44,143 nucleotides of DNA from Clostridia bacterium (GTDB lineage Bacteria; Bacillota; Clostridia; Oscillospirales; CAG-272). Shown piece after piece: positions 9,393 through 26,862 of this stretch; within the stretch, counting starts at the first letter, position 1, and each line of letters starts with the position of its first letter. A program made the translations under genes and the position numbers. The stretch is taken from positions 1-44,143 of the forward strand of contig JAFTIL010000082.1 in NCBI GenBank assembly GCA_017456905.1, read 5' to 3'. A model generated the notes under the pieces. That model searched no databases. It was given only the letters and a program-made list of their open reading frames with translations, and had not been told where the DNA came from.

Positions 9393-9430
9393 AATCCTCC
9401 GATGGGCCAACGCCCGTCGGAGGATTTTTT
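9393..9430 (+). terminator. Intrinsic terminator of alaS
   Basis: A 15-bp stem AATCCTCCGATGGGC / GCCCGTCGGAGGATT with a 4-nt loop and one G-U pair, followed by a T run. Confidence 0.9.
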
Positions 9431-10293: not shown

Positions 10294-10308
10294 GTTTAAT
10301 GAAAACCC

Positions 10309-10400: not shown

Positions 10401-10415
10401 AGAATCACAATAACC

Positions 10416-10518
10416 CTGTAAACAACAATTTACCTTTGCACATTCCATCACGGTATGCAGTTCGAATGGGATACACACCCCCGATATGGGAAGCCGCACT
10501 GCGGCCAACAATTTATCA
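10416..10518 (-). repeat. Family B intergenic repeat, copy 3
   Basis: On the minus strand it starts GATAAATTGTTG, has the hairpin GCCGCAGTGCGGC seen in copy 2, then CGGGGGTGTGTATCCCATTCG, split here as CGGGGGTGTG and TATCCCATTCG, and ends GGTAAATTGTTGTTTACAG. Together with copy 2 and C1 it fills the gap between mazF and fba (10190-10660). Confidence 0.82.
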
Positions 10519-10578
10519 TTGATACTGTAAAAAAGCAAGAAATATCATCACAATAACAAGAAAATACCATCAATCCCC

Positions 10579-10607
10579 TTGATTTTTCCTTTCGATTGTG
10601 ATATAAT
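10579..10607 (+). promoter_or_regulatory. Sigma-A promoter of fba
   Basis: TTGATT (10579-10584), 17-bp spacer, TATAAT (10602-10607), 53 bp upstream of the ATG. Confidence 0.82.
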
Positions 10608-10660
10608 AAATTTGATTTGAATGTCCCGTCAAAGAGCGGTTTTTAGAAAGGAATATCATT

Positions 10661-11620: not shown

Positions 11621-11631
11621 TTGAATTATAT

Positions 11632-11672
11632 CGAGCGGAGGGGGCTTCTTGGAGGCTCCCTTTGCTCGTTTT
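11632..11672 (+). terminator. Probable terminator of fba
   Basis: CGAGC and GCTCG pair at the base of an imperfect hairpin containing GGGGGC/GCTCCC, followed by TTTT. Confidence 0.6.
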
Positions 11673-11726
11673 GCGTAAAGAACCTCTGATCTTTATTTCA
11701 AAATGATCATTTTCAGCATGATCCTT

Positions 11727-11818
11727 GTATGGCGGGGGCTTGCTCCCGCCGAAATCTCCCCAAATCAAGGATAGCCATACTGTTGGACAAATAACGGCGG
11801 GAGCAAGCCCCGCCCTAC
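11727..11818. repeat. Family C 92-bp inverted-repeat element, copy 2
   Basis: Arms at 11727-11751 and 11795-11818 (GTATGGCGGGGGCTTGC opposite GCAAGCCCCGCCCTAC) with one mismatch and one indel, around a 43-bp centre. The arm sequence differs from copy 1, but the outer GTA/TAC ends, the G-rich left arm and the total length of 92 bp are the same. It ends 29 bp before the small gene at 11848. Confidence 0.8.
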
Positions 11819-11847
11819 GATTGTCTTTCCCTATGAAAGGAACCACC

Positions 11848-12000
11848 ATGGAAAAGCCCTTATTTGAACTGAACAACCACCAGCGCGCCTGTCTTGGGCT
11901 GACTCCCGTGGAGGCGCATTGGGAGATGATCCAACTGATCCCCAGCCCCTACGACATGGACGATGCCTATGCGTTATTTGATCTATGGAAAAAGAAATGA
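11848..12000 (+). CDS. Small hypothetical protein, possibly a truncated gene
   Basis: A 50-residue product, MEKPLFELNNHQRACLGLTP and on to ALFDLWKKK, with GAAAGG well placed before the ATG. The composition (aromatic, several Pro and Tyr) looks like real protein. The pattern of an N-terminal FELNNHQRACLGL block followed by a tryptophan and a PSPYD motif looks like the start of a longer protein that ends early here, so it may be a remnant. It converges with the ATPase gene, 16 bp away, and lies directly after repeat C2. No function can be assigned. Confidence 0.5.
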   Translation: MEKPLFELNNHQRACLGLTPVEAHWEMIQLIPSPYDMDDAYALFDLWKKK

Positions 12001-12016
12001 CCTAAGCCTGGGGGAG

Positions 12017-13120
12017 TCAATCTCCGAACAAGCGGCGGCAGAGGGCTTTATCAAATTGATCCTTTGCCTTGAAATCCATGGCAGTGGCGTAGATATTTTC
12101 CAATTCGAAATGATACGCTCCCGCCTTTTTCATGCTCTCGCAGGCGCAGTTTTTCATATCCTCGGCCAGCTTCAAGCGGTGACGCACCTCGCCACGGACA
12201 ACTCTGAAAGCATCCGCGTCAAGATAGCGATGGAGGGAAACTCTGCGGTGAGGATGAGAACAATCCGAAAGGCCCACGAGAAAGCAGGTGTGGCTATTCA
12301 TATCGTACAGACCGTCGATCTTTTGATGCATGACGGGATCATGGGAGACCATCACGTGGGCTCCCTTTTCTTTTGCCCGCTCGTAGATCAAAGTGAGCAG
12401 GCGGTGGCCAAGGCCGTAACAAGAGTCAATACAAATGATCTCCCCTCCGTTTTGGACGGCCAGTTGCTCGTAAGTATCAAAACGGACGCACCCCTTCATA
12501 CCCACGCCTCGGGTATGGGCCATATGCTCGATAAAGGTCTTCCCTGCCGTCAAGCCCTTCGCCAGACGTCCTGCCAGGCTGTTCAGTTTTTCGGTTTTTA
12601 TACAAGGAGTGATCAGCATATCGGCGGCGGCGATGGCTTCGCCGCAAGCGGCCAGGTCATGATAGGTCAAGGTATAACAGGTCTCCTTTTGATGATTCAA
12701 CGCCTTGATCTCTTCCTTTTTCGTTTGCAACAGGTGACCTTTCCAGAAAATACCCAAATTGATCATTTCCTCTTTGACCCCCGGGAGGGTGGGCTCCCAA
12801 ACGTGAGGTGCGGTGCCGTCTACGAAGCCCAGGGTGGGGTGCCCAGCTTTTTGGACGAGCAAGCCGTCTAAAGAGGTAGGATCGGAGGAACAGCAATAGT
12901 AAGTCGTGGCATACCCATGGGCTTCGGCAGAGCGGCCCAGTGTCCGTAAAAGATGGCTTTTTCCCGTCCCGGGGCCACCCTTGATGATATAAAGGAGATC
13001 AATACCGTTTCCTACACTAAAGCAACGGGGGAAATCGTTTTTAAAGCCCTGAGCGGAATTGGCGGAGGCGAAGTGTTTGTTTTCAAAGGTAGGGGGTGTG
13101 GGTAACAAATGATAGTTCAT
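12017..13120 (-). CDS. P-loop ATPase of the PRK06851 type
   Basis: A 367-residue cytoplasmic nucleotide-binding protein of unknown role. The Walker A motif GGPGTGKSHLL is at 48-58. The following CSSDPTSLDG and LGFVDGTAPHVWEPTLPG are typical of the PRK06851-like ATPases of Firmicutes, whose second half repeats the P-loop fold in degenerate form. The second half here (from about 190) has lost a recognisable Walker A, but retains IICIDSCYGLG and VMVSHDPV. I start at ATG 13120: GGAG lies seven bases upstream within GGAATGGAGAT, the same sequence that ends the family A leaders. An in-frame ATG at 13132 would overlap that ribosome site. It stands alone, converging with the small gene at 11848. Confidence 0.8.
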   Translation of the reverse strand: MNYHLLPTPPTFENKHFASANSAQGFKNDFPRCFSVGNGIDLLYIIKGGPGTGKSHLLRTLGRSAEAHGYATTYYCCSSDPTSLDGLLVQKAGHPTLGFVDGTAPHVWEPTLPGVKEEMINLGIFWKGHLLQTKKEEIKALNHQKETCYTLTYHDLAACGEAIAAADMLITPCIKTEKLNSLAGRLAKGLTAGKTFIEHMAHTRGVGMKGCVRFDTYEQLAVQNGGEIICIDSCYGLGHRLLTLIYERAKEKGAHVMVSHDPVMHQKIDGLYDMNSHTCFLVGLSDCSHPHRRVSLHRYLDADAFRVVRGEVRHRLKLAEDMKNCACESMKKAGAYHFELENIYATAMDFKAKDQFDKALCRRLFGD

Positions 13121-13248
13121 ATAAATCTCCATTCCGATGTACGTAACGCTTGGGAAACTTCATAATTTGCGTTTTCACGGCATCTTTCAATTAAAGACTT
13201 CGATATATACTATGCTTTTTTACCCACAGGGGTTCACATAAAAAATAC

Positions 13249-13290
13249 AAATCCCCTCACTTTCATGCTTTGCATGGCTGTGAGGGGATT
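13249..13290 (-). terminator. Terminator of the MoxR-VWA-lipoprotein operon
   Basis: Stem AATCCCCTCAC / GTGAGGGGATT with an inner CATG pair, followed on the minus strand by a T-rich tract. It lies 27 bp after the stop codon of the last gene of the operon. Confidence 0.85.
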
Positions 13291-13316: not shown

Positions 13317-16178
13317 TCAATTTGTTCGTTTCAAGGTGAAATTCCCGATTTTCAAATTATAATCCTCGGTGATTGTAATGCTTACAGACATTTCATCACC
13401 TTCGATCCAAGTGAGCTGGAGACCGTCAGTCTTATATTCATAGGCAAAGACAGCGGTCGTGATCAGCTCAGTGTTGCCATTCACGGTTTTGGTTTTGTCC
13501 ACGATCTTGACGGTTCCCTTGGTAGCACCCTCGCTTTCAGGAGTAAAGTCGGCTTCCCACATGATGCTACCGTAGAAATTGGCCTTCCAATGACCTGTCA
13601 GGATATTCTCTATCTTAACAGGTTCAACCACGTGAACGACCAACATACCGTATACAGAGGGATCGGCCACAGAGGTAATCTGGATCAAATAATCTCCCAA
13701 CTCGTTAGGCGTAAAGGTAGTAACGGTGATCTGCTGACGGAGCACTTCAATGACGCTTTCTGACAGCGTACCATTCTGACTGTTACGCAAGATCACGGCA
13801 GTATAGCGATTGTCTGCATTCTCGTTCACACTGGCATTGAAATTCAGTACCTGGCCCAAATACATGGTATACTCAGAATAGGTTTTGTAGCTGCCGTCCA
13901 ATTCAAAGATCTGACCCTTAATAAACGTAGGCGCGGGATAAGTGATGTTGACCGTAATGGTCTTAACTGTTCTGTCGGTAACAAAAGAGACGGTATACGT
14001 ACCTTCTTTGCGACCGTTGATAATCATATCGCCGGTAGAGGATGCAAAGGTATACATCGCATCGGGATCATTACACTGGATGCTGATACGGTCAAAAGCG
14101 GGATCAGCCGTGGCAGGCAGAAGATCCTTTACGGATAGATTGACCTTATAATTAGCACCTGTGACCATATCGATCACATCGCCGTCTTTCACCTCGTTGC
14201 CGTTCTTATCCACAATGGTATAAGAGGAAATGAGCACCTGATCGGGATCATAGGGGTTAACGGCATCTCTCACACCCACAGTCTGCTTTACGTTAATAAC
14301 GTGAGTTGCATTGGCGGCAGAAGAACCTGTAATGATCTCAATATCTGTCATCACAAAGTCAGCGTTGACCTTAAAGGTGACCTGCACATAAAGTGTACCA
14401 TAAAAGTAGGAAAAGCTGTAGGTGTTCGCCGTTTGATCATAAAACTCGGAATAATTTGTGCAGGAAGCCGCCGAATCCGCAGAAATGGGTAAACCATACA
14501 ACTGATACACAAGATCCTCTACACCATAACAAGTGAATGCATAGGAAATGAATTCGCCCGAGAAATAATAACCATCCATGAAAACGCTTTCAGCTCCCAT
14601 GTTTCTGTAGGGCTCGTCGCCTTCCTGAGCGATGGCCAGAATAGAGTTAGTATCATAGATACCGTACCAATATTCAAAGCTGTTGTTGGTGCCACTATAC
14701 TGTTGGCTGTCAGTCATATGCAGATAGCCGTCGCCAAATTCATAGTAGACCTTACCTGTATAACCTGAAGAACCGTAGGTCATGTCAATGATACCGTTCT
14801 TGACATGAGCTGTAGCTTCATCTGAGGTAGCATTATCCACCACCACCTCCAAAGAAACGAAGCCGCCACAGGTGTCGCATTTATCGTCGCGGTTCTTATC
14901 CTCGTGCTTCACTTCTTCGCCACGGACATACTGGGGATTACATCCGCAGGAGGGCAGATAATAGTGGGTATCCGTGCCGATGGACCAGGCAGAGGTATTG
15001 AAGGTATGGGTATGGTCGTAATCCCAGGCACACACGTCACAGCATTTGTCGTTATTGGCATCCACGTGAGCCTCTTCACCGCTCTTTACGCTGTGGCTAC
15101 AAGTGGGGGCATGCCAATGACCGTTCTTGTCATGGGTCCATTCCTCGGAAAACTCGTGGGTGTGATCGTAATTCCACTCGCATACGTCGCAGATACCGTT
15201 GTTATCGGCATCCTTGTGGTCTTCCTCGTCAGCTCTCACGGCATGGCCGCAGGTAGCCTCATGGTAGTGGGCCTTTTTGTCCCATTTCCAGACCGAGGTG
15301 TCATATTCGTGCTCATGGTTATAATCATAGCCGCAAACATCACATTCTTTGTTGTCGTCGGCATCTGCGTGCTCGGTTTGATCAATACCCTCCACATCAT
15401 GACCGCAGGTGGGTGCGTGCCAATGGTGGGTATCGTTGATCGTCCACTCTGCATCTGCTTGGTAGGTGTGCTCATGATCATAGTTCCAAGCACAGCCGTC
15501 ACAGATACCGTCATTGTTCTCGTCTGTGTGAGGTGCCTGCTCGGAAACCACGGCGTGACCGCAGGAGGTATCCTTCCAATGGTTATCAGCATCGTGAGAC
15601 CAGGCCTCGGCATATTCGTGGGTATGGTCGTAGTCCCAGGCACAGCCGTCGCAGATACCATTGTTATCAGCATCCTCGTGGGCAGCCTTTCCCTTCGCCT
15701 CTACGTCATGACCGCAGGTGACCGCGTGAAAATGGTTATCGTTGTCATGGCTCCATTCCTTGGCGTAGGTATGCTCGTGATCATAGTTCCAAGCACAGCC
15801 GTCGCAGACACCGTCGTTGTTGGTATCGGCATGGGGAGCTTCATCCTTCTTCACTGCATGGCGGCACGTAGCGGCATACCAATGGTTGGTCTCATCATGG
15901 GACCATTCTTCAGCAAAGACGTGCTCGTGATCGCCGTCCCAGCCACAAATATCACAAACACCGTCATTATCGTCATCGGTGTGGGTCGCCACGTTGGCCT
16001 GCATCTCGTGGCCGCAGTTGGCGGCATACCAGTGGCCGTTTTCGTCCATGGACCACTCGGTAGCGAAGGTATGCTTGTGGGGTGCCGCGGTGGGTTCTTC
16101 ATTACCGTTGCCTTGGCAAGCGGTAAGAAGCCCTGTCAGGAGAAGTCCCGACACAAGCCAAATCAGTAATTTTTTCAT
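13317..16178 (-). CDS. Large lipoprotein with eight tandem Cys/His-rich repeats
   Basis: A 953-residue surface lipoprotein. The signal peptide ends in LTAC with the lipidated Cys21. Residues 34-439 are eight repeats of about 50 residues. Each begins H-x-H-x-F/Y, has a central HW or HY/HF, then C-x-H, a second His, and closes with an acidic loop D-x-N/D-x-D-G-x-C-D-x-C followed by W-x-Y-D. That gives three Cys and four to five His per repeat, an obvious metal-binding pattern; the acidic loop resembles a calcium loop. The last repeat is degenerate (CGCNPQYV). After it come about 500 residues of beta-rich, Ig-like sequence (VVDNATSDEATAHVKNGIID onward) and a C-terminal lipocalin-like stretch ending TLKRTN. 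I start at 16178 because the longer frame only translates leader repeat A3. It is the last gene of the MoxR-VWA operon. Substrate and ligand are unknown. Confidence 0.88.
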   Translation of the reverse strand: MKKLLIWLVSGLLLTGLLTACQGNGNEEPTAAPHKHTFATEWSMDENGHWYAANCGHEMQANVATHTDDDNDGVCDICGWDGDHEHVFAEEWSHDETNHWYAATCRHAVKKDEAPHADTNNDGVCDGCAWNYDHEHTYAKEWSHDNDNHFHAVTCGHDVEAKGKAAHEDADNNGICDGCAWDYDHTHEYAEAWSHDADNHWKDTSCGHAVVSEQAPHTDENNDGICDGCAWNYDHEHTYQADAEWTINDTHHWHAPTCGHDVEGIDQTEHADADDNKECDVCGYDYNHEHEYDTSVWKWDKKAHYHEATCGHAVRADEEDHKDADNNGICDVCEWNYDHTHEFSEEWTHDKNGHWHAPTCSHSVKSGEEAHVDANNDKCCDVCAWDYDHTHTFNTSAWSIGTDTHYYLPSCGCNPQYVRGEEVKHEDKNRDDKCDTCGGFVSLEVVVDNATSDEATAHVKNGIIDMTYGSSGYTGKVYYEFGDGYLHMTDSQQYSGTNNSFEYWYGIYDTNSILAIAQEGDEPYRNMGAESVFMDGYYFSGEFISYAFTCYGVEDLVYQLYGLPISADSAASCTNYSEFYDQTANTYSFSYFYGTLYVQVTFKVNADFVMTDIEIITGSSAANATHVINVKQTVGVRDAVNPYDPDQVLISSYTIVDKNGNEVKDGDVIDMVTGANYKVNLSVKDLLPATADPAFDRISIQCNDPDAMYTFASSTGDMIINGRKEGTYTVSFVTDRTVKTITVNITYPAPTFIKGQIFELDGSYKTYSEYTMYLGQVLNFNASVNENADNRYTAVILRNSQNGTLSESVIEVLRQQITVTTFTPNELGDYLIQITSVADPSVYGMLVVHVVEPVKIENILTGHWKANFYGSIMWEADFTPESEGATKGTVKIVDKTKTVNGNTELITTAVFAYEYKTDGLQLTWIEGDEMSVSITITEDYNLKIGNFTLKRTN
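14862..16079 (-). repeat. Coding region of eight ~150-bp tandem repeats
   Basis: Encodes residues 34-439 of the lipoprotein. Units are 50 to 53 codons. They have diverged in DNA, so the array is old or under selection for protein pattern rather than a recent slippage product. The His, Asp and Cys codons create long hydrophobic open frames on the opposite strand. Confidence 0.88.
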
Positions 16179-16233
16179 GTTAATCTCCATTCCGCCGTTT
16201 TGCAGCGGCGCAAATACATTTTGAAATTCAACA
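16179..16233 (-). repeat. Family A leader repeat, copy 3 (hairpin plus RBS)
   Basis: On the minus strand: GAATTTCAAAATGTATTTG, a hairpin CGCCG/CGGCG (16206-16210 with 16193-16197), then CGGAATGGAGAT and the ATG of the Cys/His-repeat lipoprotein. It lies in the 64-bp gap between the two lipoprotein genes, within the operon, so it may set the translation of the last gene separately. Confidence 0.8.
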
Positions 16234-16242
16234 CAGTTGAGC

Positions 16243-17757
16243 TTATTTCTCAACGTAATAACCGCAAGCGAAGAGCCATTGGTCTGCCTCGGTGGCAAAT
16301 ACGCTGATAACGTCGCTGGTTTCAACGAAGCCTTGGCCGTCACGGAACAAAAGCTGGCTGATGCTGTATTTCTGCAAGAAATCCTTCAGCTCCTGGGTCA
16401 CGGGATAGCAGCCATCTGAGTTGCAATAATCCGCATATCCCGAAGCACCGATACTTTCTTCGGGGCAAGGGGTACATTGGTCCGTACAATTCTCGCACCC
16501 TTCCACGCAGGCACCGGGACAAGCGTTAGAGGTCCAACAGGGACACCCCGAAGCACAGAAATAACCCATATCCATGGATTGACCCATAGCCATCATGGCT
16601 CCCCATCCTTCGATAAAGAGCTTATAGTTTTCAGTACCGTTGGACACCGTCAATGCTTTGTTACCGTGATATTCCAGGGTGGTAAAAGCATCATCTAAGA
16701 ATCGGCAAGGCTCAGACACCTTAGCAAACAGGATGGGGCCTGTGGGCAGTCCTGTGGTCTCGTCGATGAGATGATAGTAGCCGTCCTCCTCGTTGAGGGC
16801 AAAGCGATCGCCGTCAAAGATATTGTTGGTACCATCCTTGCTTTCGGCACCGACGAATTCATAAATGGTACTGTCGTATTCAGGCGCGTGCTTGAAATTC
16901 TCAGTGGGCAGAATGATCGTAGCTTTGGTACGATTCCAGGAGAAACCGCCGTTAAGTTGAACCACAAAGGTAACGGTAATAGGATATTTATTCTCTTTGG
17001 CATCGCCTTTGACGCCAAAGGTAAAGGCGTTACCGATATTTTCGTCCGCTACCTTCACCTCGTACTTGAAATTCTTGGTGTACTGAGAAGCGGCACCGCC
17101 GTCATCCTGCTCGTAAGCAAACTGCTTCCAGGCGGTGGTACCCATATAAACGTCCAATCTGGGGTTGACATCGTTTGCCGTAACGTCTACCCAAGATTCC
17201 ACAGAATATTGACCGTTCTGACGGGGGATGAACTCATAGAGCACCACATGGTCGGCACTGTTCAACGTCACCTGGTACACACCGGGATCCGTGAGAGAGA
17301 CACAACGATAGAGATCGTCGCCGTCACCACGGGTCTTGATGATCTCGTAGAGCTCAATCTCAATATGGCGATGGTCGTTATCGGCGGTGTAGACGTTGGG
17401 GTTATAAGCAAGCCCTGCGGGAACGGAGGAAAGGGTGACCTTATAATCTCCGTCCAGCCCTTCCACCGTCGCCTTACCGTTTTCATCAAAGGTAGCGGCG
17501 TGGAAGGAGAAGCCATCGGTCCATTGGGCGTTGAGGGGTTCGTCCTCGGCAGGGAGAAAGGGCTCCCCGTTAAGCATCAAAGTGACCGAGAAGGAGGTAT
17601 CTTCTCCTTCCTCGGTTCCCTGCTCTTCGCCTGTTTCACCCACAGGACGGGAATCTTCGGGGCGCTGGATGGGGCCGTTGTACTCCCCACAGCCCATCAC
17701 GCTCAGAAGAAGGCAAAGGGCAAGAAGCGCGGCCACTATACTTTTCAGTTGTTTCAT
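16243..17757 (-). CDS. Lipoprotein with a dense cysteine cluster
   Basis: A 504-residue lipoprotein: signal peptide with VMGC and lipidated Cys23, an acidic low-complexity linker (residues 35-55), then beta-rich domains. One of these (about 56-130) resembles a carboxypeptidase-regulatory or SpaA-like fold (GEPFLPAEDEPLNAQW; GKATVEGLDGDYKVTL). Near the C-terminus, residues 401-450 contain 11 cysteines (401, 405, 407, 413, 417, 421, 424, 428, 431, 445, 450), flanked by a Met-rich MMAMGQSMDMG. This could hold iron-sulfur clusters, several metal ions or multiple disulfides; sequence alone cannot decide. AGGAGG precedes the ATG at 17757. It lies 12 bp after the dual-VWA gene, in the same operon. 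No known family recognised. Confidence 0.85.
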   Translation of the reverse strand: MKQLKSIVAALLALCLLLSVMGCGEYNGPIQRPEDSRPVGETGEEQGTEEGEDTSFSVTLMLNGEPFLPAEDEPLNAQWTDGFSFHAATFDENGKATVEGLDGDYKVTLSSVPAGLAYNPNVYTADNDHRHIEIELYEIIKTRGDGDDLYRCVSLTDPGVYQVTLNSADHVVLYEFIPRQNGQYSVESWVDVTANDVNPRLDVYMGTTAWKQFAYEQDDGGAASQYTKNFKYEVKVADENIGNAFTFGVKGDAKENKYPITVTFVVQLNGGFSWNRTKATIILPTENFKHAPEYDSTIYEFVGAESKDGTNNIFDGDRFALNEEDGYYHLIDETTGLPTGPILFAKVSEPCRFLDDAFTTLEYHGNKALTVSNGTENYKLFIEGWGAMMAMGQSMDMGYFCASGCPCWTSNACPGACVEGCENCTDQCTPCPEESIGASGYADYCNSDGCYPVTQELKDFLQKYSISQLLFRDGQGFVETSDVISVFATEADQWLFACGYYVEK

Positions 17758-17769
17758 TTGGCTACCTCC

Positions 17770-20382
17770 TTACGCTTTTTTGCCAAACAGGCTGAGGATA
17801 TCCTTCCACTTGATCTTACGGATGAAGACGTCGACTACAAAGAGCACCACGGCAGCGATCAGCAGCGGAACGGCATAGGATACCGTATAAGTAGCGACCT
17901 CCGTGGCGTCGTTCTCGATCAGCGGAACTGCGCCTTCGGTGACGGTGCCCCTGTTGCGGATGCACTCGTGGAGGGCGGCGGCATCAAAGATCACAAAGCG
18001 GTCGTACTCAGGGGAATAGGAAATGTTGTAAACGGAATAAGCCGTAAAGGACTTGTCATCGTACTCGTAGATTATCTCGATCTGATATTTACCCAAAGAA
18101 GGGGTAGCAAAATCGTAATAGTAACGGGTAGAATCAAAGGTCAGCACCTCACGGACGGTGGTGCCGTCGGGCATGGTGACCGTGACGGTGGTCACGGCGT
18201 AGGGATTCAGGGTCACGGGGATGATCTCTACCTGTGAATAAGTACCGTCAAAGGTCACGTTCAAGGTATAGGGATAGTCAATGCGTTCCTTGGGCGTATT
18301 CGTCTCCACCATATTGGTAAAGAAACGCTGACCCTCGGTGCTTTCCCAGGCGCTCATCCATTTGCCCGTAAACGTACCTGTAAAGGAGCTGACCCGGCCG
18401 TTACCGTAGTTCCAATAAGCATACACGGGAGGATGGATGGTCACCTCGTCGTTTTTCTTATAGTCGGTGGTGAGGACCGTCGTGGCGCTGGCCTTTTCCT
18501 TGGCATAGACAAATCCCATGAGGGGCGGCAAGCTGCCGATACCCTCCAGGATACCGTCATTTTTCATGACCACGTTGACGGGGGTCTCTCCTTCGATCAC
18601 CGACTCTGTGAGATCGTCGGCGATCTTGGTGAACATCAGCTCGTCCAGGTCATTTTCGTCTTCTACGCTGTAGTAGTAGCCGCCGCCTGCCGCGGCGATC
18701 TCCTTCATGGGCGCTTCTCCCGATGTAGAAGCCGTATTAAGGACGGAGGTAAAAATGTCGATGTCACGAAGATTTTTCGCCACCTCGGGGGCATTGTTGG
18801 GCTCCATAGAGTAAGTCATACCGTCCGAGATCAGCATGACCTGCCGCTCGGAATACGGCAGAAGTGCCATGAGCTGATAGGCCTGCTCCAGGGCAAGTCC
18901 GATATACGTACCTTGAGAGGGCTCGATCTCCATGATCATACGCGCGATCTCGTCTCGGTTGACAGCCTTGGTGGGGGCTTGCACCACCGATACGTCACCC
19001 GAGAAGGCAATGACCGTAACGTAGTCTTCATCGTTCAGAATATTCAGAAGCTGTACGGCCGCGGATTTGGCGATAGCCAATCGAGAAGCATTCTGCATGC
19101 TTCGGGAAGTATCCACCACGATGCCATAGAGCTTGGCATCCTGGTCGGAGTTACCGTATTTCACAGGCAACATATCCGCAAGCTGCTGCAAAACCTCTTC
19201 CTCCTCGCCCTTGTTCTGAAGCACCAGATCACCCATGGTCATAAGGCTTTTACCGAACATGGATACGGCGGTGTCCACAGCATCAATAAAGGAAGTATAG
19301 TTTCTGAGGGTACGCACGTCCACGCTTGAGATCATGATCTCGTCGTAGCGGCACATTTCCTCAATGGTATAAGGCACGTTGGGGTCATTGACGTAAGCGT
19401 CGATGGTAGCAAAGTCACCGTAGAGTGCCTGGGCTCTATCCACGTCGGCAGGATCAGAGGTAACAAGAAGAATATTCAATTTCCCCGCCACGGTCTGGGT
19501 AAAGCGGTAGGCGTTGTTATAAGGAGATTGATCTCCGTCTGCCTCTACTCTGACCTCATAATCAAAGGAACCCGATGCCGAGGTGTCAAGATCGAAATTG
19601 ACGATATTATAGCCTCGGGACAGGGTGACCGCGGAATCCGTGACCTTTTCGCCGTTGCAGAACAAGGACACGGTGGCCTTGCCATCGAAGCCCGACTGAA
19701 GCAGGACATTAGCGGTAGATTCATGGTGGCGGTAGGTAGAAGCTGTAAAATCCACCCCTGATATCTGTACCTCAATGGCCCCCTCGGGGAGATTATCGTC
19801 CAAATAGACGGCATCGATATAGATATCGTTATTATGGAGATTTTCCACAGCGCGGATGAACTCGGCGGTAGCGTCTTTGTTTGTCTCCTTACCATCGGTG
19901 ATGAGAACGACACGTTTGATCACGTCCCCGCGGAAGAGGGTAGAAACGTAGTTCAGCGCGTTGGAGATATTGGTAGCGCTATCGTCCACTCGGGCGGCCT
20001 TAACGGTGGAGATCTCTCCGCCCATGGGGGTATGTAGGACGTAATCCTTACCGAAGCAAACCACGCCTACCTTGGAGTTTTCGGGAAGCTTATCCTGAAG
20101 CTCGGCGATGTACTGATCCACCTTATCCAGGTTTTCATGGGCAGAATAGGATACGTCGGCCACCACGTACACGTGTGTCTCGGTCATGACGGTGGTCACC
20201 ACGGTACCTGCGGCGGCCAGAATGACGACAAGAACGATGACGATATGCAGGATGATGGATATCGTCGTGCTTCTGCTCTTATTTTCCTTGCGAATGGCGA
20301 TGACGAAGGGGACGATGATGAAAAGGAGGAGGGGGATGGCCAAAAGCAAGAGATAGGGATTATCGAAGCTGATATTTCTCAT
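17770..20382 (-). CDS. Membrane-anchored protein with two VWA domains
   Basis: An 870-residue protein with two N-terminal membrane segments (about 10-30 and 41-60) and one near the C-terminus (ending WKDILSLFGKKA). The first VWA domain begins at VYVVADVSYS, with a MIDAS motif D-x-S-x-S at 76-80. The second begins at YGIVVDTSRSMQ, with D424-T-S-R-S and the downstream SDGMTYS. Between and after them lie Ig-like beta regions and a glutamine-amidotransferase-like segment (LNILLVTSDPAD). The layout resembles BatB/BatC-type or CoxE-like partners of MoxR ATPases, but two VWA domains in one chain is unusual. I start at ATG 20382, which overlaps the end of the preceding gene by 23 bp; the frame's upstream ATG at 20409 lies deeper in that gene and would precede the LLLL membrane segment with an unlikely tail. 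Confidence 0.86.
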   Translation of the reverse strand: MRNISFDNPYLLLLAIPLLLFIIVPFVIAIRKENKSRSTTISIILHIVIVLVVILAAAGTVVTTVMTETHVYVVADVSYSAHENLDKVDQYIAELQDKLPENSKVGVVCFGKDYVLHTPMGGEISTVKAARVDDSATNISNALNYVSTLFRGDVIKRVVLITDGKETNKDATAEFIRAVENLHNNDIYIDAVYLDDNLPEGAIEVQISGVDFTASTYRHHESTANVLLQSGFDGKATVSLFCNGEKVTDSAVTLSRGYNIVNFDLDTSASGSFDYEVRVEADGDQSPYNNAYRFTQTVAGKLNILLVTSDPADVDRAQALYGDFATIDAYVNDPNVPYTIEEMCRYDEIMISSVDVRTLRNYTSFIDAVDTAVSMFGKSLMTMGDLVLQNKGEEEEVLQQLADMLPVKYGNSDQDAKLYGIVVDTSRSMQNASRLAIAKSAAVQLLNILNDEDYVTVIAFSGDVSVVQAPTKAVNRDEIARMIMEIEPSQGTYIGLALEQAYQLMALLPYSERQVMLISDGMTYSMEPNNAPEVAKNLRDIDIFTSVLNTASTSGEAPMKEIAAAGGGYYYSVEDENDLDELMFTKIADDLTESVIEGETPVNVVMKNDGILEGIGSLPPLMGFVYAKEKASATTVLTTDYKKNDEVTIHPPVYAYWNYGNGRVSSFTGTFTGKWMSAWESTEGQRFFTNMVETNTPKERIDYPYTLNVTFDGTYSQVEIIPVTLNPYAVTTVTVTMPDGTTVREVLTFDSTRYYYDFATPSLGKYQIEIIYEYDDKSFTAYSVYNISYSPEYDRFVIFDAAALHECIRNRGTVTEGAVPLIENDATEVATYTVSYAVPLLIAAVVLFVVDVFIRKIKWKDILSLFGKKA

Positions 20383-22222
20383 AGCAATACACCATCCAAT
20401 CCGCCACAAAAATCAAGGCAAGCGCGATGAACACAGCCAGCAGCGCGTCATATTTTCCATCAAACCCGCCGGGGGTGGCTTCTCCCTGCAGGCTCAGCTC
20501 CAGCTCCGCTACCACGGGCAGGCGCTCTTCTTCATTCACGGCGGCGTACATCTTAAACTGTCTTTGGGTGTTGGACACATTCATGGTGACGGTATAAACA
20601 CCCACCTCAGTGGGGACGAAATAGGCGGTGGCGCTTTCGGTGCTGATATAGGAACTATCGCCCGAGGGAGCGTCAACGCGAATGCTTTCACAGTTGGCGG
20701 GGACGTTGACCGTGATCTCGTCACCACAATAGTAGGAAGAGGTCTCCATAATCTCGGGGAAGGAATAATTCACCAAATTTCTCATGAGGACCGTGAAATC
20801 GTACAAAAGGGGGAGATTGGAGCTGCGAAGGTCAAAGGCAAAGACCACCTCGCGGTTTCCAAGTGCATTGGTCCCCGCAAAGATCGCAGGGTTCCCCTGG
20901 TAAGACATAATGGTATAAAAGTTGCGGTAAAGACCGTATTTCATGAGGCGGGACACGTACACCTGATCTCCCGACATATCTTGCACGAGGGTCTTGAGAG
21001 AAGAGGCAGTCGAGGTGGACAGCTCCAGAAGTTCGCCCTTATTGAAGGTCAACTCACCCTGGACGCTGAAGCCCGAATCCTCAAGGCTGGCAGTCTGGTT
21101 AAAGAGCCAGACGGCTCCGTCGGCAGGCATGGCATCGGGAGTAAAACCATCAAAAACGTACAGTCCGTAGCCGCGTTGACCCGTATATTCCTCGGGGGTG
21201 ATCACGTCCATTCTGGCGTTGAGCAGGGCGTCCAGCATGGATTGGATAAAGAAGGGCGCTTCGCTGACGATGAGGGTATTATAAGAGTTTTCGCTTTCGA
21301 TATCGAAAATCTCCTGGCTGTTATCGTAAGCAAAGGCATCTTCCTCAGCGATATGCACGCGGAGATCAGTAAATTGGTCTACACGGGCGGTGAGCTGGAA
21401 GGGGGTGTCCTTACCCTGAGCCACCACTACCACACCCATGGTGATGGGGTCTGCGTTACCGTTGACATAAAGCTCGGTGGTAAGGGTGGTATCGCTCATA
21501 TATGAGGTCACGTAACCATTGACGGTCAGCAGCTTATCCACGTAAGTATAGGTAAGCCCTGAAACGGCGTAGTTCTCCACATCGCCGCCCACATGCAAAA
21601 GGGTCATATTATTGTTGGTCTCATAATATCTGTCGGTCACGAGATACACCAGCGACGAGGGATTTTCAGTAAAGTGTGCTTGGGCGTCACCCACGGCAGT
21701 AGTCAGTGGGATGGCACCAAAAGCAGGCTCCAGCTCAGAAAGCAGAAACAAAGCATCTTCCTTGTTGTCGATGCTGTCAAAGACGAGGGTAGTATTGTCC
21801 CCCGCATAGACGAGAGAAAAGATACTGCCATCCACGGCCTTATCAATGGTCTCGGCGATCTGTGCCTTTCCCTCCTCAAAACGGGTGAGGGTATTGCCCT
21901 CCTCATCCAAGCCGTATTCCATACGCATACTGCCCGAGCCATCAAGGATGAAGAAATAGTCGTTGGCGGAATCGGGAATGGTGATCATGGGGTGGGCGAT
22001 GGCCAAGGAGATGGCGGTCACAGCCAGGATCTGCAGGATCAAGCTAATGATACCCGTCAAGCGGTTGAGGGGGTTGCGGCGCTTGAGAAATTTCTCACTA
22101 AGGATCCAAAGATAGGTAGAGGACACCGTTTGTTCGGTGTATTTGCTCTTGATGATGTAGATAATGATCAGGACAGGGATGCCCAAAAGGCCCAAAAGGC
22201 CGAGGGGATATAAAAAACTCAT
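20360..22222 (-). CDS. BatA-like membrane protein with VWA domain
   Basis: A 620-residue protein. The N-terminus MSFLYPLGLLGLLGIPVLII is the typical BatA/Aerotolerance regulator N-terminal domain: a membrane helix (6-24), a short cytoplasmic loop with LKRRNPLNRLTGI, and a second helix (56-76). A VWA domain follows with MIDAS motif D94-G-S-G-S. A beta-rich extracellular region and a C-terminal membrane helix (LLAVFIALALIFVADWMVY) complete it. The operon position, straight after MoxR and DUF58, is classic for Bat systems. It overlaps DUF58 by four bases (ATGA), so translation is coupled. GGGGGTG precedes the ATG. Confidence 0.9.
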   Translation of the reverse strand: MSFLYPLGLLGLLGIPVLIIIYIIKSKYTEQTVSSTYLWILSEKFLKRRNPLNRLTGIISLILQILAVTAISLAIAHPMITIPDSANDYFFILDGSGSMRMEYGLDEEGNTLTRFEEGKAQIAETIDKAVDGSIFSLVYAGDNTTLVFDSIDNKEDALFLLSELEPAFGAIPLTTAVGDAQAHFTENPSSLVYLVTDRYYETNNNMTLLHVGGDVENYAVSGLTYTYVDKLLTVNGYVTSYMSDTTLTTELYVNGNADPITMGVVVVAQGKDTPFQLTARVDQFTDLRVHIAEEDAFAYDNSQEIFDIESENSYNTLIVSEAPFFIQSMLDALLNARMDVITPEEYTGQRGYGLYVFDGFTPDAMPADGAVWLFNQTASLEDSGFSVQGELTFNKGELLELSTSTASSLKTLVQDMSGDQVYVSRLMKYGLYRNFYTIMSYQGNPAIFAGTNALGNREVVFAFDLRSSNLPLLYDFTVLMRNLVNYSFPEIMETSSYYCGDEITVNVPANCESIRVDAPSGDSSYISTESATAYFVPTEVGVYTVTMNVSNTQRQFKMYAAVNEEERLPVVAELELSLQGEATPGGFDGKYDALLAVFIALALIFVADWMVYCYEKYQLR

Positions 22223-23103
22223 TTCAACACCCCCATATCTATCATATTTTCAAAGAAGATCTTACCCATGGAGTCCTCGGCAGAAACCAGCATATAGTCT
22301 GCTCCGCGGGCGGCACAGTACCCAGAGATACGATTTTGGACATAGGCCAAAGCTTCCTTATAGGCCTTGGCGATGTCTCGGTCGATGTTCTTTTTATAGG
22401 TTCTCGAAGCATTCTCTGAGTCAAAGAAATGAACACGGCCGCGGGTCATGGGATTCAGCTCTTCTTTTGAGAGCACCTGCACGCAAAATGCGTGGCGCCG
22501 CTTCCCTACCAAGTGGTCGATGGCGTCTTCATAGTTATTGTCGGTGAGAAAGTCGGAAATGATAACGGACATACCGTCACCGTAGCCCACGTTTTCGGGC
22601 AGGAGGGCGTCGCTGATATAGCTGTCACCGTCAAACTCGATCTCGTTGAGCTTGTTGATCGAGGTATAGAAGGACTCCTTCCCTACCATGCCAAGGATCA
22701 CGTCGTGGACCTGTCCCTCGCGGATGATATAGATGGAGACCTTGTCCATCTCGTTTACCGAGAGGTAGGCAATGGTGGCGGCGATCCTCAAGGCTTGCTC
22801 TGCCTTGGCGGCACTGCCGTAAGCCATGGAACGGCTGGCATCGATATAGATGCGGGTGTGCATCTGTCGCTCGTCCAGATACAGCTTGAGATACAGCTTA
22901 TCAAATCGGGCGAGAGCATTCCAGTCGATCTTAGTCACGTCGTCTCCCGCCTGGTAGTCGCGGTAATCTGCAAACTCACAGGAGGAGCCGTAGGTCTTAC
23001 TTTGGTGGTTACCGCCGAAGAGACCCGCCACGTTGTTCTTGATCAGCATTTGCAGGGTTTCCACTTCCTGCAAAAATGCCTCGTTGATGATGTTTTTTTC
23101 CAT
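22219..23103 (-). CDS. DUF58 family protein
   Basis: A 294-residue cytoplasmic protein that normally partners with MoxR ATPases. The signature DYRDYQAGDDVTKIDWNALA (residues 46-65) is the core DUF58 motif, and it leads into a VWA-like fold with a MIDAS sequence D88-A-S-R-S. No membrane helices are seen, unlike some longer DUF58 proteins. It lies nine bp after moxR and overlaps the BatA-like gene by ATGA. Its own ribosome site is weak (TTTTGG), so it probably depends on coupling to moxR translation. Confidence 0.92.
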   Translation of the reverse strand: MEKNIINEAFLQEVETLQMLIKNNVAGLFGGNHQSKTYGSSCEFADYRDYQAGDDVTKIDWNALARFDKLYLKLYLDERQMHTRIYIDASRSMAYGSAAKAEQALRIAATIAYLSVNEMDKVSIYIIREGQVHDVILGMVGKESFYTSINKLNEIEFDGDSYISDALLPENVGYGDGMSVIISDFLTDNNYEDAIDHLVGKRRHAFCVQVLSKEELNPMTRGRVHFFDSENASRTYKKNIDRDIAKAYKEALAYVQNRISGYCAARGADYMLVSAEDSMGKIFFENMIDMGVLK

Positions 23104-23112
23104 TATCCAAAA

Positions 23113-24096
23113 TTACTTCTTCTTGGTTTCCTTGATGAGCATACCGATGACGTCATCCACGGACAGGCGCTCGTTGATAGCGGCGTAGCTGACCTTGATT
23201 CTGTGGCGGAACACGGGGTATGCCAGCGCATCGATATCTGCAAAGGACACGTTGTAATTACCGTTGATCAGAGCGCGGACTTTGGCACAAGTGATGAGGG
23301 CCTGGGCAGCACGGGGAGAGGCACCGTACTTGATATACTTCTTAGCGGTATCGGAGGCCTTGTCAAGCTCGGGGTGTGTACCTGAAACGAGGCGAACAGC
23401 GTAGTCCAGCACCTCGTCGATGACGGGCACGGAGGCAGCCAAAGCGCGCATATCCAGGATGGTAGCACCGTCCACAACCGACTCGGCGGTCTCGTCCAAG
23501 GTGATCTGGGTCATCTTAACGATGTCGGCCAGCTCGTCGTTGCCGGGGAACTTCATGATGAGCTTAAAGATGAAACGGTCCATCTGTGCCTCGGGCAGAG
23601 GGTAAGTACCATCCTGCTCGATGGGGTTCTCGGTTGCCAGCACGAAGAATGGCTCGTCCAGAGCATAGGTCTCGTTACCCACGGTGATCTTATGCTCCTG
23701 CATGACCTCCAGCATGGCAGACTGGGTTTTCGGGGTGGCACGGTTGATCTCATCGGCCAGCACCAGATTGGCAAAGATGGGGCCCCTGCGGAACTCGGTC
23801 TTCATGTTGCCGTTGTCGTCACGGACGATGACGTTGGTACCCGTGACGTCGGAGGGCATGAGGTCGGGGGTAAACTGGATGCGGGAGAAGGGGAGGTTCA
23901 GCACGTGGCTGAGGGAGCGGACGAGACGGGTCTTACCGACACCGGGGACGCCCTCCAAAAGAACGTTACCACCCGCAATGATGGCAATGATGACATTATC
24001 TACGATGTCCTCCTGGCCCACCACGTCCTTTTTGAGCTCGGACTTGATCTTGGCCACGACCTGACTGAAATTCTTTACTTTTTCGATGTTTTCCAT
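23113..24096 (-). CDS. MoxR-family AAA+ ATPase
   Basis: A 327-residue AAA+ chaperone. Walker A is GVPGVGKT (49-56), Walker B LVLADE (111-116) followed by INRATPKTQSAMLEVMQEH, sensor 1 is ATENPIEQDGTYPLPEAQMDR with the arginine finger region, and the lid has YGASPRAAQAL. MoxR proteins act with VWA-domain partners to remodel or load cofactors into protein complexes (CbbQ-CbbO, NorQ-NorD, RavA-ViaA are the known cases). Here the partners would be the DUF58 and VWA proteins encoded next. GAGGAAGG sits before the ATG at 24096. It lies 43 bp after the first gene of the operon. Confidence 0.95.
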   Translation of the reverse strand: MENIEKVKNFSQVVAKIKSELKKDVVGQEDIVDNVIIAIIAGGNVLLEGVPGVGKTRLVRSLSHVLNLPFSRIQFTPDLMPSDVTGTNVIVRDDNGNMKTEFRRGPIFANLVLADEINRATPKTQSAMLEVMQEHKITVGNETYALDEPFFVLATENPIEQDGTYPLPEAQMDRFIFKLIMKFPGNDELADIVKMTQITLDETAESVVDGATILDMRALAASVPVIDEVLDYAVRLVSGTHPELDKASDTAKKYIKYGASPRAAQALITCAKVRALINGNYNVSFADIDALAYPVFRHRIKVSYAAINERLSVDDVIGMLIKETKKK

Positions 24097-24139
24097 GCTG
24101 GTTTTCCTTCCTCGTTATGTAGATGTTTTAATGAACCGA

Positions 24140-25615
24140 TCAGCTCTCGCTCTTTCTGTCAGAGCCATCGTACAGGGTCGCAAAATAATCGCTGATGAAC
24201 TGCTCAAGGGAGTCCGGGGTCTGTCCGTCGATGATCTTCTCGGATACGGCGGCGAAATATTCGTTAATAACGTCACCGTACTTGACGTATTCGTTTTTCA
24301 CGGGATCATAGATCACATCGTCACTGCCAAACAGCACCTCGGCTTCGCCGGGTGCGCCTTGATCTCCTCTTTCTTCCTCATCCTGCTTATCCTCTTCCTC
24401 TTTTTCATCGTCAGAGGGGATCTGCTGTTGTTCCTCCGCAGGGAGCTCATCCTCCGAGATTTCGAAGATCTCCATGAGGCGGGCAACAGCCATGTTCTTG
24501 ACATCTTTATTGACGTACTGGATGTAGAGCGCATCGCTGAGATTATTGGCAGCGTTATTGAAGACAGTATCGAGCTGGGTCTGCGCCCAATCACGGGTAT
24601 AGTCTGCCGCCACGCGGGAGACCTCGGAAAGATCTTTTGCCAGGGTATCCAGTGCGATATAAAGCTCGTCGTCCTCTGCCACCGTTTCGGCGACCTCGGC
24701 CATAACCGAATTCAAAGCCGTCAGGTAAGCGGCAAGAGGCTCTGCCACCTCGTCTACTTTCAAGGTGTCTCTTGCGTCAGCCAAAGCCTCTCTTGCTTCA
24801 AGGCCGTTCAGCATATCCAATGACATAGCCAGGTCCGACACCTTTTCATGCTCAGAGACCGTAAGGTAAGGACTGATCGTATTGGCGGAGTTATGCTCAC
24901 GAATGATCTTATTGAGATTAGCGATCACGGTAATGACCATAGCCTTCATATCGGCCTCGGTATCCGTCACACGGAGTGCGGCCAGAAGCACCTCCAGCGC
25001 ATCCACAGAGGCATCCTTGGGAGATGTCTCCATTTCAGAGGCCTTCACGTCCTCGATCAGCTCCAAAAGGGCGGTCTCCTGCCAGGAGCTCAGCTCAAAG
25101 GGGGGCTCGGGCTCTTCGGGGGGAAGCTCCACCGCTTTAACAGGGGTCATGATGGCCACGACAGTCACGGCACAAGCCAGCAGGGGGGCAAAGGCGTGGA
25201 GCCAGGGGTGCTTATATCGAACAGCGCGGGCGGGGGCCTTCAACAGCCGTTCGTCCGCGTCCTCACGCTGGAGGGTGAGCATATCGCTGTCCTCGTTCTG
25301 ATAGGCCAGCATGGTCTGCACCTTTTCACCGAGGGCCAGATCGCGGTCCAGCTTTTCGGCGATCTTTTTTTCGGAGGGACGCAAAATAAGGAATGCCAGC
25401 AGGCCCATGATCACAGCCACGCCTGTGCCTACGGGCAGATACAGCAACAGCTCGGGCGGAACGGTGGTCAATTTCTGATAAAGAATGACCACGGCTGCCG
25501 AGAGCAGGCCGCAGGAAAGGCCGAAGACCAAGGCTTTAAAAAAAGCACTCCTTCGTAATTTCTTTTTAAAGCGGGCAAAACCGCCGCTTTTTTTAGTCAC
25601 GGTAACGTTTTTCAT
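24140..25615 (-). CDS. Membrane protein with acidic C-terminus, DUF4175-like
   Basis: First gene of the operon; 491 residues. A basic N-terminal tail (KKLRR) precedes two membrane helices (about 26-46 and 58-78), a cytoplasmic loop and a third helix (about 140-160, HAFAPLLACAVTVVAIMTPV). The rest, about 330 residues, is alpha-helical and outside the membrane, and contains a run of Glu/Asp around residues 400-425 (DEKEEEDKQDEEE). The membrane plan matches DUF4175-type proteins that accompany MoxR and VWA genes. It ends in DGSDRKSES. It may act as the membrane platform or substrate of the MoxR complex. GAGG precedes the ATG, and the promoter lies at 25750-25778. Confidence 0.82.
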   Translation of the reverse strand: MKNVTVTKKSGGFARFKKKLRRSAFFKALVFGLSCGLLSAAVVILYQKLTTVPPELLLYLPVGTGVAVIMGLLAFLILRPSEKKIAEKLDRDLALGEKVQTMLAYQNEDSDMLTLQREDADERLLKAPARAVRYKHPWLHAFAPLLACAVTVVAIMTPVKAVELPPEEPEPPFELSSWQETALLELIEDVKASEMETSPKDASVDALEVLLAALRVTDTEADMKAMVITVIANLNKIIREHNSANTISPYLTVSEHEKVSDLAMSLDMLNGLEAREALADARDTLKVDEVAEPLAAYLTALNSVMAEVAETVAEDDELYIALDTLAKDLSEVSRVAADYTRDWAQTQLDTVFNNAANNLSDALYIQYVNKDVKNMAVARLMEIFEISEDELPAEEQQQIPSDDEKEEEDKQDEEERGDQGAPGEAEVLFGSDDVIYDPVKNEYVKYGDVINEYFAAVSEKIIDGQTPDSLEQFISDYFATLYDGSDRKSES

Positions 25616-25749
25616 TCATTCCATGCCTCTTTTCTATAAACTACACGCCATATTCAAATGTCACAAACAAGTAAGGAAAAATCTCAGCAATATCAACAAT
25701 TCTTTGTCAAAATACCAAACTTACCCTTATATGCAATACTCTGTTCAAT

Positions 25750-25778
25750 AGTATAGCATATTTTCACTGTAAAGTCAA
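25750..25778 (-). promoter_or_regulatory. Sigma-A promoter of the MoxR-VWA-lipoprotein operon
   Basis: Minus strand TTGACT (25773-25778), 17-bp spacer, TATACT (25750-25755). It leaves an AT-rich leader of about 125 nt before the first ATG. The gap 25616-26025 holds this promoter, the divergent MBL promoter and leader A2; I see nothing else in it. Confidence 0.82.
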
Positions 25779-25901: not shown

Positions 25902-25930
25902 TTGACAAACACCTCAAATGCGAGTATAAT
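25902..25930 (+). promoter_or_regulatory. Sigma-A promoter of the MBL-fold gene
   Basis: Consensus TTGACA (25902-25907), 17-bp spacer, TATAAT (25925-25930). Transcription would begin about 35 bp before leader repeat A2. Confidence 0.87.
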
Positions 25931-25971
25931 AGACTCTATAGAATATCACATTGTTTTTCTGCCTAACGGCA

Positions 25972-26025
25972 CGGTCGAATGACAAAATTTATTTATGCCG
26001 CCGATGGCGGCGGAATGGAGATATT
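25972..26025 (+). repeat. Family A leader repeat, copy 2 (hairpin plus RBS)
   Basis: CGGTCGAATGACAAAATTTA, a perfect hairpin GCCGCC/GGCGGC (25997-26002 with 26006-26011) with a GAT loop, then GGAATGGAGAT and the ATG. The stem is longer than in copies 1 and 3, while the flanks are shared. Confidence 0.8.
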
Positions 26026-26862
26026 ATGGCCAAATTGCATTTCCTCAAATCGGTGACGGATACCATCAATACGTCCTTTATTCTGGAGAGCGGTGACGAC
26101 CTGCTCATGGTGGACGGCGGCTTCCCTTCCGAGGCTCCTTATCTGTATGAATACTTAAAGTCTCTGGGCGGCCACGTCAAGGCTTGGTTCATCACCCATT
26201 TCCACATTGACCACTTCGGTGCGTTCTATACTGTTTTAAAAGAGCATCCCGACATCACGGTGGATAAGGTGTACTATAACTTTCCTTCCGACCGCTTTCT
26301 CCTTGCAGAGGGCGGCGGCAAGCAAGACGACTGGGACACCGCAGAGTTGATCGAGCAGGTTCGCTCTGCCACAGCTGACCGCAATATCCCAGTAGTAACG
26401 GTACAAACGGGAGACGTCTACGAGTTTGACAGCGGGCGTGTGGTGGTACGTATCCTCCGCACCCCTGATGAAAGCATCACCCACAATCCCATTAACAATT
26501 CCTCCATCGTGTTCCGCTTTGAGGCCGACGGCAAGCGTATGCTGTTCCTCGGTGACCTTGGGGTAGAGGGCGGCAATCAGCTCATGGGGATGTATCCGTC
26601 CGAGGAGCTGAAATCGGATTACGTGCAGATGTCCCACCATGGGCAGGGCTGTGTCACCAAGGAGTGTTACGAGGTCATCAGACCCGACTATTGTCTGTGG
26701 CCCACCCCTTCGTGGCTGTGGGACAACATGGGCCCCGGCGGGTATGACACGGGCATCTTCGGCACGGTGATCACTCGCGGGTGGATGAGCTCCCTGCGCT
26801 GTGTCAAGCGGCACTATCTGATGATCCATGGCACACAGGTGATAGATCTCACACAAGAATAA
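26026..26862 (+). CDS. MBL-fold metallo-hydrolase
   Basis: A 278-residue protein of the metallo-beta-lactamase fold, ComEC/Rec2-C-terminal-like branch. The zinc-binding motif is THFHIDHFG near residue 60; further ligands are the Asp in LFLGDLG and the His pair in MSHHGQG. HYLMIHGTQ may provide the final His. It lacks a signal peptide. Relatives include hydrolases of phosphate esters and cyclic nucleotides, but the substrate cannot be read here. I start at ATG 26026, where GGAG is six bases upstream; the longer frame only translates leader A2 and diverges from the family. It is monocistronic and converges with the ABC exporter at a shared hairpin. Confidence 0.86.
   Translation: MAKLHFLKSVTDTINTSFILESGDDLLMVDGGFPSEAPYLYEYLKSLGGHVKAWFITHFHIDHFGAFYTVLKEHPDITVDKVYYNFPSDRFLLAEGGGKQDDWDTAELIEQVRSATADRNIPVVTVQTGDVYEFDSGRVVVRILRTPDESITHNPINNSSIVFRFEADGKRMLFLGDLGVEGGNQLMGMYPSEELKSDYVQMSHHGQGCVTKECYEVIRPDYCLWPTPSWLWDNMGPGGYDTGIFGTVITRGWMSSLRCVKRHYLMIHGTQVIDLTQE

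Follow-up and report, generated by a model that had tools for sequence, protein, structure and literature searches.

The window analysed here, 44,143 nucleotides (nt) at positions 1 to 44,143 of contig JAFTIL010000082.1 (assembly GCA_017456905.1, a Clostridia bacterium of the Oscillospirales, CAG-272), carries an operon in which genes for a MoxR ATPase, a DUF58 protein and two membrane proteins with VWA domains are followed by two lipoprotein genes, here called LP1 and LP2. Its seven open reading frames (ORFs), all on the minus strand, span positions 13317-25615 and encode, in order, a membrane protein with three transmembrane (TM) helices (gene 1, 24140-25615), the MoxR-type AAA+ ATPase (gene 2, 23113-24096), the DUF58 protein (gene 3, 22219-23103), a BatA-type protein (gene 4, 20360-22222), a dual-VWA membrane protein (gene 5, 17770-20382), LP1 (gene 6, 16243-17757) and LP2 (gene 7, 13317-16178). 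Neighbouring genes are separated by gaps of 43 nt (genes 1/2), 9 nt (2/3), 12 nt (5/6) and 64 nt (6/7), or overlap by 4 nt (3/4) and 23 nt (4/5); ATG 20382 was preferred to TTG 20409 as the start of gene 5, and ATG 16178 (MKKLLIWLVSGLLLTGLLTAC) to GTG 16343 as that of gene 7. The intrinsic terminator (13249-13290, minus strand) lies in a stretch with a folding energy of −27.9 kcal/mol (z = −5.3), which none of 200 shuffled sequences equalled. The ORFs, the junctions and the terminator energy confirm the seven-gene operon, read in one direction, that an earlier model reading of the letters alone (hereafter, the sequence-only reading) had described, and the gene order given there holds. The source genome is given as 94.7% complete with 8.8% contamination, and the operon recurs in relatives.

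The single promoter assigned to the operon by the same reading is conserved. An extended −10 site (TTGACT-17-TGCTATACT, 25778-25750, minus strand) matches the consensus at 10 of 12 positions; since 22 promoter-like sites were found in the region and 16.7 were expected, this match alone is not significant. On the other hand, an equivalent site, TTGACT-17-TATAAT with TG, occurs in register at the aligned position in genomes G001 and G004, two of the three relatives aligned, the third (G002) being out of register and uninformative.

Genes 1 to 5 are the clostridial core. Pfam matches over the cut-off were obtained for AAA_3 in gene 2, DUF58 in gene 3, the BatA N-terminus and a VWA domain in gene 4 and two VWA domains in gene 5, and none for genes 1, 6 and 7. 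The AAA_3 match reaches 204.6 bits against a cut-off of 27, with the Walker A motif GVPGVGKT at residue 49 and LVLADE at residue 111; the protein also passes the bpMoxR cut-off (60 bits vs. 27), yet its AAA_3 score is far higher. Its closest solved chain is 2r44, and its putative assignment to the MRP subfamily was judged from the context. In the DUF58 protein a DxSxS motif was found at residue 88 and no TM helix was found, while the BatA-type protein has two N-terminal TM helices, a VWA domain with DxSxS at residue 94 and a C-terminal TM helix. In all 14 operons of the kind described below (LP1-type operons), DxSxS, T and D are preserved at both metal-ion-dependent adhesion sites (MIDAS) of the dual-VWA protein. 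A weak GATase1-like segment follows its second VWA domain, below the cut-off in the window (18.8 bits vs. 27) and over it in the gene 5 relatives of loci L159 and L160 (47.9 and 41.5 bits). Likeness to DUF4175 was seen below threshold in 2 of the 18 members of the gene 1 family scanned (best E 0.0053), and gene 1 of the window is without it.

The topology of the core was predicted from hydropathy and flanking charges. In both the BatA-type and the dual-VWA protein the loop between the first two helices is positive, and the C-terminal tail after the last helix is strongly positive in the dual-VWA protein and weakly positive in BatA, so that their VWA domains should face out, as should the C-terminal part of gene 1; MoxR and DUF58 are most simply placed inside the cell. 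The C-terminal tails of the membrane VWA proteins are alike. For the BatA-like protein BB0173, PMC5700661 reports a periplasmic VWA domain.

Both lipoproteins carry a lipobox (LSVMGC in LP1, LLTAC in LP2) after one hydrophobic helix, as judged by eye. LP1 contains 9 Cys within residues 401-431 (16465-16557, minus strand), and this cluster is an insertion present in 7 of the 14 LP1 proteins, namely in the seven from the genus and in no others, its absence from G415 having been judged on the C-terminal piece of LP1 available there. By contrast with this restricted cluster, the C-terminal domain (NEEDGYYH...PVTxEL...QWLFACGYY) ends in QWLFACGYY or a close form in 14 of 14, with the Cys of the motif always kept. 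The conserved part of LP1 is therefore other than the Cys cluster. A search of the PDB with LP1 gave zero matches.

As for its neighbourhood, all 14 operons of one clade have LP1 directly behind the dual-VWA gene, with the order of the core unbroken. At least two families of the class, f1 and f90, are represented among these operons, five of which come from genomes without stated kinship. Among 58 relatives LP1 was matched in eight, seven times at full length and always within the genus, the eighth (G049) being a weak partial match. Full-length LP1 is thus present in 7 of the 12 genomes of the genus, the source genome included; the same seven carry the dual-VWA protein at no less than 56% identity and in identical gene order, and in G003, G005, G006, G008 and G009 both LP1 and the LP1-type dual-VWA protein were not found. 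With the LP1 profile, 8 of 394 genomes of the order gave a match (strong in G000 and G290, at most 23 bits in the other six), and 4 of 301 genomes of the class (strong in G000 and G609, 19.6 bits in two). From the opposite side, dual-VWA proteins of at least 781 bits were found in the seven genus members among the 58 genomes, in G000 and G290 among the 394, in G000 and G609 among the 301, and in G415, G416, G417, G420 and G423 in a set of nine; these sets overlap, and all include or add to the 14. Every dual-VWA protein at or above 781 bits has LP1 next to it, which gives the 14 of 14, and LP1 is absent from 19 of 19 examined rows with a dual-VWA score of 383 bits or less, rows that are partly non-independent (L075 and L076 are near-identical contigs). 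Since LP1-type members were used to build the dual-VWA profile, A2, the score gap favours them.

The MoxR and DUF58 trees (27 and 28 rows, respectively), which are independent of the A2 score except for the choice of rows at >150 bits, gather the 14 LP1-type operons in one clade, with support of 100/100 and 100/98. Moreover, the pairwise identities of LP1 and of the dual-VWA protein run in parallel (r = 0.975; 78 pairs from 13 operons, leaving out G415, in which LP1 is cut), and in G290, G423, G420, G416 and G417 the two genes share 4 nt. Gene context thus supports LP1 as a partner of the machine and, as the sequence-only reading had held, the lipoproteins as members of the MoxR operon.

LP2 behaves differently from LP1. 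Part of it is a tandem array of eight Cys/His repeats, each some 50 residues long (14865-16079, minus strand), in which H1, H3, H16, C22, H33, C42 and C45 are invariant over 21 repeat pairs from three orthologues. In 63 repeat hits from 20 loci, some of them overlapping and 13 of the hits coming from four LP1-type operons, conservation among the rows that have a letter at the position is 100% for H1, H3, C42 and C45, 92% for H33, 89% for C22 and 87% for H16; at position 24, His accounts for 32% and Cys for 30%. Because His and Cys interchange at this position, a metal ligand would fit better than a disulfide, and LP2 may bind metal via its repeats, as a property of a swappable module. A match to LP2 was obtained in 16 of the 58 relatives, mostly via the repeats alone, and the repeats occur in 54 of the 394 genomes of the order, of which only G000 and G290 were found to have the LP1-type operon; in the other 52 the dual-VWA search did not find it. 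At position 7 of the 14 operons at least one repeat is present in nine (the seven of the genus, one of them a fragment at a contig end, G290 and G423), other lipoproteins in four (G420, G609, G416 and G417) and a 716-residue protein without a lipobox in G415, leaving gene 7 without a match to the repeats in 5 of 14. Relatives of the C-terminal half of LP2 are present in G290, G423 and G420 (79, 79 and 51 bits, scores that include large corrections for composition); none was detected in the other genus subclade, G609, G416 or G417. The PDB search with LP2 returned one match, at E 0.089. Gene 7 is thus a variable slot.

Outside the LP1 clade, other genes fill the place of LP1. In L080, L081, L083, L133 and L139 a homologous BspA-LRR lipoprotein follows the dual-VWA gene, with an LRR_5 Pfam match shown for L133 and L139, and the three of these cores present in the trees (L080, L133 and L139) group together; in L081 BatA adjoins gene 1, with MoxR and DUF58 not between them, and the contig of L083 ends inside DUF58. 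Another very large lipoprotein was observed behind the BspA-LRR one in L081, L083 and L133. We rejected these proteins as further Cys-rich clients, since the 26-27 Cys of L133 and L139 accompany the LRR_5 repeats, which indicates that a Cys count alone misleads. Neither were the lipoproteins of L135 and L140 counted as partners, being mutually unrelated and that of L135 lying 183 bp away; the lipobox calls for L079 and L082 appeared spurious and were dropped, and L068 was counted as a lipoprotein on the basis of a lipobox, SSVAC, after a later start, which an upstream start had hidden. The distant clostridial cores L159 and L160 are without a lipoprotein in this place and are preceded by genes that, on inspection by eye, resemble those of an ABC ATPase and a permease. 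Two side observations concern the cores themselves: the lipoprotein after the dual-VWA gene of L140 (8354-10285) resembles the dual-VWA protein (93 bits), apparently without membrane helices, and contigs C110 and C125 of G000, the source genome, hold a second copy of the core with identical scores, probably strain redundancy in the assembly, BatA of C125 being split over two ORFs (L076, 7632-9062 and 8963-9502).

Taken together, these data led us to prefer a reading, to which we give about an even chance, in which genes 1 to 5 form a MoxR/VWA machine spanning the membrane, with LP1 as the dedicated surface lipoprotein on which its outward VWA domains act. MoxR, with DUF58 as its cytoplasmic VWA-like partner, would pull or twist the two membrane VWA proteins by their conserved cytoplasmic tails, and the outward MIDAS sites of these proteins would hold LP1 on the external side of the membrane. 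The work of ATP could then serve to assemble, display, release or keep in order LP1 and whichever surface lipoprotein follows it. LP1 would be a dedicated extracytoplasmic subunit or client, and LP2, an eightfold, probably metal-binding array, a swappable payload. A wider proposal, which we put forward only tentatively, is that MoxR-DUF58-BatA-dual-VWA complexes make up an undescribed class of ATP-driven machines for the assembly or display of surface lipoproteins, each clade being locked to its own lipoprotein (LP1 or BspA-LRR) with a hypervariable slot behind. The targets of MoxR/DUF58/BatA operons are unsettled, and LP1, which stands beside the machine in every examined member of the clade, is a concrete candidate for an outside partner.

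Several points weigh against the LP1 machine. That a cytoplasmic ATPase acts on domains outside the cell is an assumption. All 14 operons are either that of the window or were first found via the LP1 search; independent dual-VWA searches of the same genome samples also retrieved the genus members, G290 and G609. For G420 and G423 the operon came to light through the dual-VWA protein, the LP1 search having given only distant relatives elsewhere in the genome. The genome searches score few candidates per genome (3 to 12), so absences are no proof. Relatives of LP1 also exist apart from the machine: a protein of L093, in genome G418, is 25% identical to LP1 (57.5 bits) and adjoins a redoxin lipoprotein, without a dual-VWA match in that genome, and weaker relatives of the C-terminal domain occur in L094, L096 and L097, in genomes without an LP1-type dual-VWA match. 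The L093 protein may be an out-paralogue. Indeed, redoxin lipoproteins and the proteins encoded next to them carry LP1-type C-terminal domains without linkage to MoxR, both in L093-L097 and in the source genome itself. Finally, a convincing lipoprotein is missing after the dual-VWA gene in 12 of the 19 non-LP1 rows, and with many cores lacking LP1 the handling of lipoproteins need not be the basic job of the core.

The sequence-only reading had preferred another explanation, in which the operon is a metal-loading or redox-maturation system, like NorQ/D, CbbQ/O and CoxD/E, with the Cys/His-rich LP1 and LP2 as its clients. The high content of these residues is real: LP1 has 3.2% Cys and LP2 3.2% Cys and 5.6% His, compared with 0.3-1.0% Cys and 0.65-2.0% His in the remaining five proteins of the operon. 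It is known, furthermore, that MoxR/VWA pairs insert metal in nitric oxide reductase (NOR), as described in PMC13036017; the repeat ligands of LP2 are mostly kept, with His and Cys exchanging at position 24; and in G416 a redoxin lipoprotein directly follows LP1, with a Fer4_5-redoxin protein as the second gene after it. However, the Cys cluster is missing from half of the LP1 proteins, the repeats are widespread, in all but two genomes without the LP1-type operon being found, and gene 7 is repeat-free in five operons, and the idea that the Cys/His content marks clients of such a system is unsupported; for LP2, wide occurrence away from the MoxR genes is what the sequence-only reading itself had named as refuting it. 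In addition, MoxR should be intracellular and the lipoproteins outside. In the sequences compared nothing found in the conserved part of the operon ties it to metals, and the Cys/His features do not appear to be conserved with the machine. The data give no support to metal loading as the core job; it is weakened to an unlikely explanation, and for this branch attention moves to the handling of surface proteins.

It is similarly improbable that the operon is an inward sensor, in which LP1 would bind a ligand outside and the VWA proteins would relay its state to DUF58 and MoxR, changing a cytoplasmic target as might happen with PFNA. The conserved LP1 domain could bind a ligand, and in the PFNA cluster, as described in PMC8430577, a kinase accompanies a surface FN3 protein, MoxR and DUF58. 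Nevertheless, kinase, phosphatase and regulator domains were not found among the seven proteins, and AAA+ ATPases are described as typically remodelling their substrate (PMC13036017, in part).

Lower still we rank an extracytoplasmic thiol relay maintained by the machine, with LP1 as partner or disulfide client of redoxin lipoproteins, which seems rather remote. The C-terminal domain of LP1 is homologous to one found in redoxin lipoproteins (hhalign 98.6%, E 5e-16) that have the two invariant Cys of a CxxC motif, the Cys of the WLFACGYY-like motif never changes in LP1, and the G416 redoxin lipoprotein adjoins LP1. Against this, the link beside the operon is seen only in the sister pair G416/G417, in G417 only via the resemblance of a cut protein to that of G416, and the redoxin lipoprotein of the source genome lies on a separate contig, C30. 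On that contig (L131, 14001-30000) the redoxin lipoprotein (9251-12094) stands beside a lipoprotein sharing the C-terminal domain of LP1 (7831-9366), and comparable pairs occur in L093-L097, which may represent a thiol relay outside the cytoplasm that has yet to be described. In two genomes (L091, 15430-17475; L098, 13833-15938) a redoxin domain is fused to a membrane Fer4_5 protein encoded near redoxin and LP1-like lipoproteins, and C13 and C77 of the source genome give a 63% match to the Fer4_5-redoxin protein over the Fer4 part.

That both lipoproteins are mere transcriptional passengers at the operon end is about as doubtful as the relay: the variability of LP2, the commonness of its repeats elsewhere and the 12 of 19 rows without a convincing lipoprotein would agree with it, and it is a fair reading for LP2, but for LP1 it is opposed by the unbroken linkage, the overlapping genes, the matched divergence and the single clade. 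A defence system was rejected, as PADLOC gave only weak AAA-type matches (best 23.8 bits), all of them to MoxR and none to the other six proteins. The third components of MoxR-vWA ternary conflict systems (VMAP, iSTAND, FtsH or a beta-propeller) were not found among the seven proteins. The matches of a plasmid search with DUF58 were all below 60% identity.

Regarding the surroundings of the operon, a perfect consensus promoter (12/12) lies at 25902-25930 on the plus strand, back to back with that of the operon, and precedes a divergent gene of the metallo-beta-lactamase fold (about 25951-26862). Beyond the latter, upstream of the operon, are two neighbouring genes for ABC transporter ATPase domains (26904-30709, minus strand), and just downstream of the terminator a 371-residue protein with a P-loop-like GGPGTGKS is encoded (12017-13132, minus strand), for which no Pfam match was obtained at E 1e-5.

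Several known systems resemble the operon in part. The RL3499-RL3502 operon of Rhizobium leguminosarum reportedly contains genes for DUF58, BatA-N/DUF4159 and GATase1-like proteins and, in many cases, for a DUF4175 protein. Of these, GATase1_like is matched over the cut-off in two relatives of gene 5 and below it in the window, and DUF4175 gives sub-threshold signals in 2 of 18 members of the gene 1 family; two VWA domains in gene 5 of the window and the two lipoprotein genes that follow set it apart. The MRP-type MoxR RL3499 was found to be important for membrane integrity and cell morphology (PMC3893208, in part).

MoxR, DUF58 and a BatA-type VWA membrane protein are also common to the Bacteroides-type Bat operon, as far as described in the parts of PMC5700661 and PMC11834572 consulted, the latter reporting for Riemerella that it is important for stress tolerance. 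Unlike the Bat operon, the window has lipoproteins and no Pfam match to BatD, TPR or SH3 at E 0.1 in the seven proteins; in the open-access literature searched we likewise found no described Bat operon with such lipoprotein partners, in agreement with the sequence-only reading.

NorQ/NorD, CbbQ/O and CoxD/E share MoxR and a VWA protein with MIDAS, and among the MoxR/VWA systems compared metal insertion by NorQ/D is the best-described mechanism (PMC13036017, in part). Their targets are enzymes (NOR, Rubisco and CO dehydrogenase), whereas no enzyme was recognised in the operon of the window, and its three VWA domains are predicted outside.

In the PFNA cluster of Bifidobacterium, too, a secreted surface protein (FN3) is encoded together with DUF58 and an MRP MoxR; the cluster genes named in the accessible part of PMC8430577 include a kinase and a transglutaminase-like protein, which are absent here, and no VWA membrane protein is among them. 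In archaea, a secretion system was predicted from operons that encode surface proteins along with a GldG-like protein, a MoxR-type ATPase and a secreted vWA protein (PMC5898192). This predicted secretion or remodelling complex (arCOG01314, COG0714 ATPase, secreted vWA) combines a MoxR-type ATPase, an outside vWA protein and surface proteins, as here, and the ABC ATPase- and permease-like genes before L159 and L160 are a further point of likeness, with the differences that a DUF4350 match was not found in our operon and that the archaeal system is itself a prediction. By analogy, the known relatives, RL3499, Bat, PFNA and the archaeal operons, point to the envelope.

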